Positions 53,490-56,026 of a stretch of 64,000 nt of DNA are shown one piece after another. The position numbers and the translations under genes are program-made. The notes below the pieces were generated by a model that was not told the origin of the DNA, ran no database searches, and saw only the letters and a list, made by a program, of their open reading frames with translations. Numbering within the stretch: the first letter of the stretch is position 1; each line of letters opens with the position of its first letter. Source of the stretch: Macrocybe gigantea (taxonomy: Eukaryota > Basidiomycota > Agaricomycetes > Agaricales > Callistosporiaceae); assembly GCA_011319805.1 (NCBI GenBank), contig SJRY01000111.1, forward strand, positions 620,001-684,000. The letters are read 5' to 3'.

Positions 53490-56026
53490 ATGTCCGCCCT
53501 GTTATCGTCCTCCGAACACGAGGTGTGTTAGGCCTTGTTGGACCATACGTTGATGATATCGCCCGCAGGCTCTAGATCGGGCCCAGCAGTCAGCCAAACT
53601 GTCATTACGAGCTCAATTACCCTATCACGTTACGCTTCTCACCAAAGCCGAGTTGAAAGACATCCCCGTCGATCAGGTCGAACAGGTCCTTAACGAAGAC
53701 ATCCAGAGTCTTCAGGTCTACTTTGCCGGAGTTAGTGGCAACATCAACGGTGGCGTGATATTTGCGGTGATCGTGTGGGCAGTGGGACAGCGGATCCGGA
53801 AGCGCTTGGGTCTACCTCCGAAGCATTTCCACATAACGCTCTCTGCTCACGATGATCATGACATGGACAAAAGCATCGATTCCCTCCTGCACCAAATTTC
53901 TGGATCATCTCGCCTTCACTCTGCACATTTTTCGGCAATTTCGCAAGGCGCAAGACATTTCTACGCGTTTAGCGCTCATGGCCAACGACTCGCAGAGAGG
54001 ATATCTCCGGCTTGCAGATGCGTCATTCATGCTTGACGAACACAAGCTCGCAATGCTGTCCTATGCACGTGCTTATGACCAGTCGATGGATACGAATATT
54101 CAGGCATACTGCGTGAAACGGCTAGCTGAATGTGCAAGGCAAACGGAATGGGGAACTTTGATGCTCGAAGAAGAGCTTTCACAGATCCCGACAGACATGA
54201 AATCGCTTCTTTTCGTCCCATGGTCGCAAGCGCTTCGGACAGCCCTCAGCGATACTGAGGTTACACCCTCACTTCAGCTACTACCCAGACAGGCGCTTTT
54301 TATACCCTTAAAGCTTTCTGACACACCGCCTTACAAATTACCCAGGTTCTTCCGCTGGCTCATTCCTTTCCGGTTCGCGATCATGTCAACGCCGAGGCGT
54401 GAGGAAGATATTGCTACTCTTTCATCCCATCAGCTAGGGATCCGGCACATCCTTACATTGACAGAAGAGACTCCATTGCAAGCATCGTGGTTCCGTGGAA
54501 AGAACATCACAAACACATATCTTCCCATTCCTAATTTCTATCCCCCAACAACCGAACAGATGGATCTGATTGTCAGATTGTTCGATGACGAGTCGAAGCT
54601 GCCACTGCTGGTGCATTGCGGCGGCGGAAAAGGAAGAGCTGGAACTGTCGCCGCGTGCTATATAGCTGCGTTTGGCTTTGGAAAGCCTTCGCACCACCAA
54701 CAGCGGCCACAAATGGCAGCCGCGGAGGCCGTTTCACTGCTTCGCAAACTGCGACCTGGCAGCATAGAGACAGCCCAGCAGGAGGCATTCGTGTCTAAGT
54801 GGTGTAGCACCGTATGGAAGCGCCGGTCTGTCTTTCCCGAGTTGCCCTTGGAGCCAGCACCCTGTCCGATGATCATTGAAGGGAGTCTTGATGCCGCGCC
54901 CGACCTCCTTATGCTGGTTGGTCTACCAGGATCAGGAAAGACATGGTTTACCAAGGCCATGATTTCGAGGAATCGTACCTGGACTTGGATCTCGCCGGAC
55001 AACGCGGGCAGCAGGGCCGCATGCGAAATAGAGCTAGGCAGAGCAAGAAGTCAAGTACTTCTTGATCGGTGCAACACATCCGCCGCCGACAGGAAATATT
55101 GGCTCAGCCTTGCCTCCAACTGGTGCACATCGCCAATATGTGCCTGGTTTGATTATGATCGAGACCTCTGCATTTCGCGCGCACAACTACGCGCTGGCCA
55201 TCCTACTTTACCCCCAGGCAGTCGGGTTCGAAACGCCATAGATCAGATGGACAAGATCTTCGTACGGCCGGGGGTGACAGAGGGCTTCAAGGCCGTTGTC
55301 ATCATCAAATCTTTCGCTGCAGCAGAAGAACTTGTTTTCAGGCTGTCTCCTCCCGTGGCTATTTACAAGTTTCCCCGGACGCCTCATCTTATCACCTCGG
55401 AGCCGCAACGTCTGATGATATCATGGCAAATATACCCAGCACAACAGCTGACTACGAGGTCGTCATTACCGAAAAGATAGACGGAGCCAACATGGGCTTC
55501 AGCCTGTCATCGGACCGCTCGCGAGTCATCGTCCAGAATCGCTCTCATTTTGTCAACTCATCATCTCACGAACAATTCAGAAAATTGGATCTCTGGGTTG
55601 AAAGACATCGCGAAGAACTCTATTCTATCCTGGGGCCAGGATGTAGCGTTCGGCGAATGGATGTATGCAACGCATTCCATCTCTTACACTCGGCTGCCCG
55701 ATACCTTCCTAGCATTCGATCTGTATGACCGCGCTGAAAATGTCTGGGTTGATAGAAGGACTCTCGAACGGCTTGTTGCCTCCACCTCAATCGCCCTAGT
55801 TCCAGTTCTTTATCGCGGACAGATGCCATCCGAGAATGAGCTCCGAAACATGGTTCAGTCGCAATCCGAGTTTTGGGATGGCCGAGTAGAAGGTATATAC
55901 GTCAAAATGGAGAGAAACTCGTCGGTTGCATTCAGAGGGAAGGTTGTAAGGCACGATTTTATCGCAGGCAACGAGCATTGGAGCCGAGCCAAGCTACAGG
56001 TGAATGGAGTAGCTGGGATCGATTAG
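53490..56026 (+). CDS. Multidomain RNA-repair enzyme: 2H phosphoesterase, Cys-phosphatase, P-loop kinase, RNA ligase
   Basis: About 830 residues in two exons (33-nt first exon, 46-nt intron 53523-53568). Domain 1: two 2H-phosphoesterase motifs, YHVTLLTK (near residue 31) and FHITLSAH (near 99). A helical, TPR-like stretch follows (RGYLRLADASFMLDEHKLAM). Domain 2: a dual-specificity-type phosphatase with LVHCGGGKGRAGTVAACYIA, catalytic Cys near residue 361. Domain 3: a P-loop kinase, LMLVGLPGSGKTWFTKAM (near 462), with LLDRCNTSAADRKYWL as in polynucleotide kinases. Domain 4: an Rnl2-type RNA ligase starting KFPRTPHL, with motif I EKIDGANMGFS (nucleotidyl Lys near 647), FGEWMYATHS, FLAFDLYD, EGIYVKME and motif V FRGKVVRHDF. 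Single-base breaks at 53892-53893, 55394-55396 and 55632-55635 interrupt the frame, like those in neighbouring genes. The stop is 78 nt before adenosine kinase. Confidence 0.75.

Follow-up and report, generated by a model that had tools for sequence, protein, structure and literature searches.

A Swiss Army Knife-type gene with a broken reading frame in the Macrocybe gigantea assembly and its predicted role in RNA end healing and sealing

Four modules on one strand of the window

We analysed a 64,000-nucleotide stretch of the Macrocybe gigantea genome, hereafter the window, from an assembly of 41.2 Mb in 333 contigs. Positions 53490 to 56026 of its forward strand contain four modules in the order 2H phosphoesterase, Cys phosphatase, P-loop kinase and ATP-dependent RNA ligase. 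The modules were identified by searching four reading-frame pieces against Pfam with a cut-off of 27 bits per model, and matches were considered up to an E-value of 0.1. The E-values of the module matches were far beyond what chance would produce. The features of the locus, all on the forward strand, are as follows.

53490..53522, +, probable exon 1 of 11 codons, with a presumed start codon (ATG at 53490) and a GT donor at 53523
53523..53568, +, GT-AG intron of 46 bases in phase 0 (GTGTGTTA...GCCCGCAG), giving an in-frame join to the 2H domain
53593..53859, +, 2H phosphoesterase, PF22547 2H-SAK (Pfam E 3.4e-18, 66.5 bits against a cut-off of 27)
53626-53634 and 53830-53838, +, HxT motifs of the 2H domain, both inside PF22547
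53860..53945 (approximate), +, probable single-base frame break 1, a frame change between the 2H domain and the linker
53905..54334, +, linker of about 430 bases between the 2H and PTP domains, helical and TPR-like by eye
54341..54793, +, Cys-dependent phosphatase, PF22784 PTP-SAK (Pfam E 4.1e-57, 192.9 bits against a cut-off of 27)
54527-54547, +, phosphatase acid loop IPNF, from alignment to DUSP23 and 25xa
54614-54646, +, phosphatase loop HCGGGKGRAGT, inside PF22784
54887..55309, +, P-loop domain resembling 5'-OH polynucleotide kinases (AAA_33 E 6.1e-9, 36.8 bits; TIGR01663 E 2.1e-8)
54920-54943 (GLPGSGKT), 54992 (SPDNAGSR) and 55061-55075 (LDRCN), +, kinase motifs, positioned in the translated frames
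55373..56023, +, ATP-dependent RNA ligase, PF09414, motifs I to V (E 1.6e-11, 45.1 bits, and E 3.3e-18, 66.9 bits, in two frames)
55390..55396, +, single-base frame break 2 at the ligase N-terminus (KFPRTPHL in frame 2 to 55390, LGAATSDD in frame 1 from 55396)
55471 (EKIDG), 55649 (FGEW), 55706 (FLAFD), 55889 (EGIYVKM) and 55934 (RGKVVR), +, ligase motifs, inside PF09414
55635..55640, +, single-base frame break 3 inside the ligase (REELYSILG in frame 1 to 55635, DVAFGEW in frame 2 from 55640)
56024-56026, +, stop codon ending the ligase

An initial annotation, made from the letters of the window, had reported two HxT motifs, an HCxxGxGR-type phosphatase loop, a kinase with GLPGSGKT and DRCN, and a series of ligase motifs starting with EKIDG. 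Each of these was recovered within a matching domain: the HxT pair in 2H-SAK, the loop (as HCGGGKGRAGT) in PTP-SAK, the kinase motifs in a PNK-like domain matched by AAA_33 and TIGR01663, and the ligase motifs in PF09414. The same annotation had described a single protein. Its list of modules is borne out by Pfam, but the single chain is not found in the assembled sequence, which has no full-length frame.

The linker gave a best Pfam match of only E 0.098. A single-sequence structure model of 53912-54841 reached a pLDDT of 38.8 and was unusable.

Assignment to the Swiss Army Knife family

The 2H-SAK and PTP-SAK models both scored far above their cut-offs, with the kinase and ligase following on the same strand. 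In a search of the genome, PTP-SAK matched the phosphatase at E 4e-56. Since SAK is Pfam's abbreviation for Swiss Army Knife, the gene is a further member of a named family that is predicted to repair RNA and that reportedly goes back to Burroughs and Aravind in 2016. Going by the names of the Pfam models, the locus is a fungal SAK-type gene and no new kind of system. It shares the 2H and PTP domains with the family and differs in having a broken frame in the assembly. The modules of the separate one-chain healing and sealing system that had been proposed for this locus hold up, and this kind of protein already has a name in Pfam. In the open-licence literature, Swiss Army Knife is also named in a jumbo-phage table.

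Other occurrences of the fusion were sought in several collections. Among 72,556 plasmid records, one had a match to the phosphatase. Phage records gave no match at E 1e-5, and viral contigs gave no pattern match to the fusion. A search of the fungus's own genome with PF10307 (HAD_SAK_1), run without a positive control, returned no match. No assay of a four-module fusion was described in the titles and abstract beginnings of the open-licence literature.

Frame breaks and the state of the gene

Whichever way break 1 is read, positions 53490-56026 as assembled have no full-length frame. Besides the ordinary intron, the frame changes amount to two secure and one probable single-base breaks in about 2.5 kb. 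Breaks 2 and 3 are regarded as secure because their flanks are conserved with bacterial ligases and because intron candidates there would cut conserved sequence; each formal GT-AG candidate at these positions was either too short or would delete such sequence. Break 1 is graded as probable. A 46-base GC-AG intron candidate at 53950-53995 formally fits as an alternative, and its removal would delete a stretch that is TPR-like by eye. The frames used contain no stop codon other than at the breaks, and the catalytic motifs of the 2H, kinase and ligase modules are all retained despite them.

To place these breaks in context, we used as controls four pairs of near-identical copies from the same assembly, taken from tables of 44 and 34 matches. 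The CCT pair on contigs C228 and C68 (L022 and L023; 94.7% identical) had a single-base exon break in C228 near 229.4 kb that was absent from C68. Likewise, the HSP70 pair on C227 and C75 (L111 and L112; 95.2% identical) had a single-base break in C227 near 464.3 kb that was absent from C75, and its other two intragenic gaps were intronic. Both intragenic gaps of a further HSP70 pair (C227/C80, 97.3% identical) were intronic. A second CCT pair (C126/C66, 99.5% identical) had no gaps at all, a comparison in which a break common to both copies would not show. Outside these pairs, the 987-codon Raptor frame in the window was open throughout, and about 2.1 kb of Trl1 contained a probable single-base break, situated where the kinase part meets the CPD part (L012 near 4295, corresponding to C309 near 140.79 kb). 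The latter is graded as probable because formal intron candidates exist there too. Overall, the controls amounted to two secure breaks in approximately 13.4 kb of matched exon in eight gene copies, plus the probable one in Trl1. On these small numbers, the SAK gene is somewhat enriched in breaks relative to the controls. The assembly seems to contain both alleles of some regions.

These comparisons bear on whether an ordinary SAK gene has recently died in the sequenced strain, leaving a pseudogene or an inactive allele at this locus. Such a death would be in keeping with two secure breaks and a probable one in about 2.5 kb, more than in the controls, and with the replacement of the phosphatase acid-loop Asp by Asn. 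However, there are no stops beyond the breaks, the catalytic motifs of three modules persist, and errors or allele-specific breaks also hit housekeeping genes whose second copies are without them. Because the same type of break occurs in one CCT copy and one HSP70 copy with intact second copies, assembly error is the likelier cause of the breaks than gene death, and we consider a dead copy rather unlikely. No second copy of the gene was found in the genome, where its 547-amino-acid frame otherwise matched only a PTP on C206 at 33% identity.

Trl1 encoded elsewhere in the genome

In canonical Trl1, too, a single chain carries a ligase, a 5'-OH kinase and a 2H-type phosphodiesterase. The SAK gene departs from it in having the reverse order of modules, as the initial annotation had stated and the Pfam matches agree, in having a PF09414 ligase in place of PF09511, and in the addition of a phosphatase. 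With Pfam matches accepted up to an E-value of 0.1, the SAK gene had no match to the three Trl1 models (PF09511, PF08303 and PF08302), and both PF09414 matches in the genome lay within the SAK gene. The separate Trl1 that had been suggested as a check was found on another contig, with PF09511 at C309:138853-139732 followed by PF08303 and PF08302. The same genome has a Tpt1-like gene (PF01885) on C40. The joint made by Trl1 bears a 2'-phosphate that requires Tpt1. With Trl1 and a Tpt1-like gene elsewhere in the genome, the SAK protein would not be needed as a tRNA-splicing ligase. A GC-AG intron appears to be used in this Trl1 (L012 near 2500-2547).

The kinase module

The nearest PDB sequences to the kinase were 9d8a, named as a Rhizopus azygosporus kinase, and 9drz, at E-values of about 2e-16. 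Its match to the NCBIfam model TIGR01663 (PNKP-type), at E 2.1e-8, was far below that model's full-length cut-off. Walker A, the Asp of SPDN and DRCN all align with 9d8a and 9drz, with SPDNAGSR lying opposite NQDDMGSR of 9d8a; we take the Asp of SPDN to be the catalytic one. From these alignments, the P-loop module is predicted to be a PNK-type kinase acting on RNA 5'-OH ends. No title concerned with the 9d8a kinase was found among open-licence papers from 2023 on.

The phosphatase module

The presence of an added Cys phosphatase had been claimed before and is upheld by PTP-SAK. Nearly the full length of the module can be aligned to DUSP23 and 25xa, at E-values between 4e-20 and 7e-20, and its C-X5-R loop and SIET segment are intact. 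The entire catalytic domain of DUSP23 is covered by this alignment. The fungal phosphatase differs in being one part of a larger chain and in its acid loop, which reads IPNF in place of the IPDF and LPDF of DUSP23 and 25xa, so that an Asn stands where they carry an Asp. In DUSP23-type phosphatases, the acid-loop Asp is the general acid. Given this substitution, phosphatase activity is possibly weak or altered. It may be that Asn is usual at this position in the family, or the change may reflect decay.

One possibility raised by the substitution is that the module has a binding or regulatory function and no phosphatase activity, with 2'- or 3'-phosphates left to another enzyme. We judge this improbable, as the C-X5-R loop and SIET segment are intact and the PTP-SAK score is very high, even granting the change from Asp to Asn relative to DUSP23 and 25xa. 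It is less probable still that the phosphatase trims RNA 5' ends in the manner of DUSP11 instead of acting on 3' or 2' ends. That idea came from the initial annotation, and the DSP fold class does include DUSP11. Nevertheless, sequence comparison gave the DUSP11-like reading no support: the nearest relatives were DUSP23, 25xa and Pfam's PTP-SAK, and at a threshold of E 1e-5 the module matched 10 PDB sequences, which include DUSP23, a Sulfolobus phosphatase and CDC14B but no chain named DUSP11. Moreover, beside a 2H domain, a terminal 2'- or 3'-phosphate would be the obvious substrate.

Elsewhere in the genome, inverted stretches on C81 and C77 (L026 and L027) are 98% identical, and each has a phosphatase frame matching PTP-SAK.

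The ligase module and its bacterial relatives

Taken as a 217-residue read-through, the ligase matched 35 of 72,556 plasmid records, the best being from Tistrella mobilis at 36% identity, 98% coverage and E 1e-33. It also matched 21 of 50,697 phage records, and 14 of the 20 records among the matches listed were longer than 300 kb. Scanning prokaryote genomes with the fungal ligase yielded 27 pattern matches and zero confirmed relatives. A scan with the Tistrella ligase found 360 related stretches. For comparison, the 80 highest-ranking ones were combined with seven earlier loci (87 in all, L015 and L028 being an identical stretch). Among these best 80 of 360 plus seven, the closest to the fungal ligase was L082, at about 40% identity over its length.

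In an alignment with seven relatives (A1), the fungal ligase was 29-37% identical to them, with the Tistrella ligase at 37%, and residues E34, K35, D37, G38, E95, E173 and K190, belonging to EKIDG, FGEW, EGIY and RGKVVR, were common to it and all seven. The likeness to bacterial PRTPHL proteins that had been pointed out from the sequence is therefore well founded, in view of these identities and the roughly 40% of the best locus. The ligase domain aligns end to end with these proteins, annotated as 'RNA ligase family protein', which are short single-domain ligases unlike the multi-module fungal chain. Searching the flanks of the 87 ligase loci at E 0.01, several of which are short, gave no 2H, PTP or kinase of the SAK-gene type.

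The region of break 3 is unbroken in all seven aligned relatives, and that of break 2 in five, the other two being without the region. The frame shifts at every break could be taken to divide 53490-56026 into two or more separate genes, an explanation that is hardly credible when breaks 2 and 3 lie within one domain that is continuous in relatives.

Members of the Rnl2 family have a separate C-terminal domain after motif V. The fungal ligase is without one, its chain ending 24 residues past RGKVVR. Against the Rnl2 equivalog model TIGR02307, the N-terminal piece scored 14.2 bits with a cut-off of 197.15 and the C-terminal piece had no match, figures that refer to frame pieces only. The earlier description of the ligase as Rnl2-like applies to its PF09414 core; the equivalog score, obtained on a partial piece, lies far under the cut-off at 14.2 versus 197 bits.

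Bacterial neighbourhoods of the ligase were partly shared. In four of the six annotated plasmid loci (L015, L016, L017 and L019), the ligase gene was preceded by two others, one for an ATPase of the AAA or DUF3696 type and one that is small and hypothetical; L018 and L020 were without this arrangement. At the two loci examined with PADLOC (L015:3212-5672 and L016:3050-5678), the two neighbours were identified as a candidate anti-phage pair made up of HEC-03B and HEC-03A, and the ligase matched no model at either. As the ligase lies beside this pair without a PADLOC match of its own, PRTPHL-type ligases may belong to the HEC-03 system as a third component that has gone unlisted. Open-licence papers joining 'HEC-03' with 'RNA ligase' were not found. 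The HEC-03B/HEC-03A pair consists of an ATPase and a small protein that is PIN-like by eye (IDTNV).

The fungal ligase may plausibly have come from bacteria. One of the loci, L099, is on a contig titled as a Klebsiella pneumoniae metagenome-assembled genome, and its ligase is about as near to the fungal one as acidobacterial and myxobacterial ligases are. The Klebsiella pneumoniae bin label of L099 may be wrong.

A predicted healing and sealing enzyme in one chain

With all four modules in one chain, a complete healing and sealing enzyme is the simplest reading of the locus. We propose that the gene encodes a single protein consisting of a 2H domain, a helical linker, a DUSP23-like PTP-SAK phosphatase, a PNK-like kinase and a minimal ATP-dependent ligase, and that these act in sequence. 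The 2H domain would open the 2',3'-cyclic phosphate that a metal-independent RNase leaves behind, and the phosphatase would take off the remaining 2'- or 3'-phosphate to give a 3'-OH. The kinase would add a phosphate to the 5'-OH end, and the ligase would then join the 3'-OH to the 5'-phosphate. Unlike the joint made by Trl1, the product would carry no 2'-phosphate. RNA cut by RNase effectors is the proposed target of repair. We infer the catalytic steps, the RNA substrate and the repair role from the kinds of module present, the steps following from what is established for their families, and assign roughly a 65% probability to this architecture and mechanism taken together.

Comparable divisions of labour occur in phages. 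In T4, Pnkp and Rnl bring together kinase, phosphatase and ATP-dependent ligase activities, with the phosphatase in such systems mostly of the HAD fold. A jumbo-phage study describes repair sets in which cyclic ends are opened by a 2H enzyme and the resulting linear phosphate is removed by a phosphatase, with a polynucleotide kinase preparing the 5' end for an ATP-dependent ligase; these sets include a Swiss Army Knife family of HAD phosphatases (PMC7824862). They likewise combine kinase, phosphatase and ATP-dependent ligase; their phosphatase is mostly of the HAD fold, whereas the fungal gene has a Cys phosphatase and holds all parts in one chain (PMC7824862).

A stronger claim would be that the living fungus has an intact copy, that its Cys DSP phosphatase heals the RNA 3' end in place of the usual HAD phosphatase or the Tpt1 route, and that, together with a ligase from a bacterial anti-phage source linked to HEC-03, this one-chain enzyme constitutes a second, Trl1-independent means of sealing in the cell. 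We put this forward tentatively and consider it unlikely on present evidence. Spread of RNA-repair parts between bacteria and microbial eukaryotes has been described by Burroughs and Aravind, as quoted in PMC11258130. The position of the ligase's relatives beside a candidate bacterial defence pair fits such a spread.

The meaning of the locus depends on the state of the gene. If it is dead, it is a further member of a named family. If it is intact, a fungus that has Trl1 and a Tpt1-like gene would also keep a self-contained enzyme for repairing cut RNA with a clean joint, and the activity predicted for the SAK family would become testable with a single purified protein.
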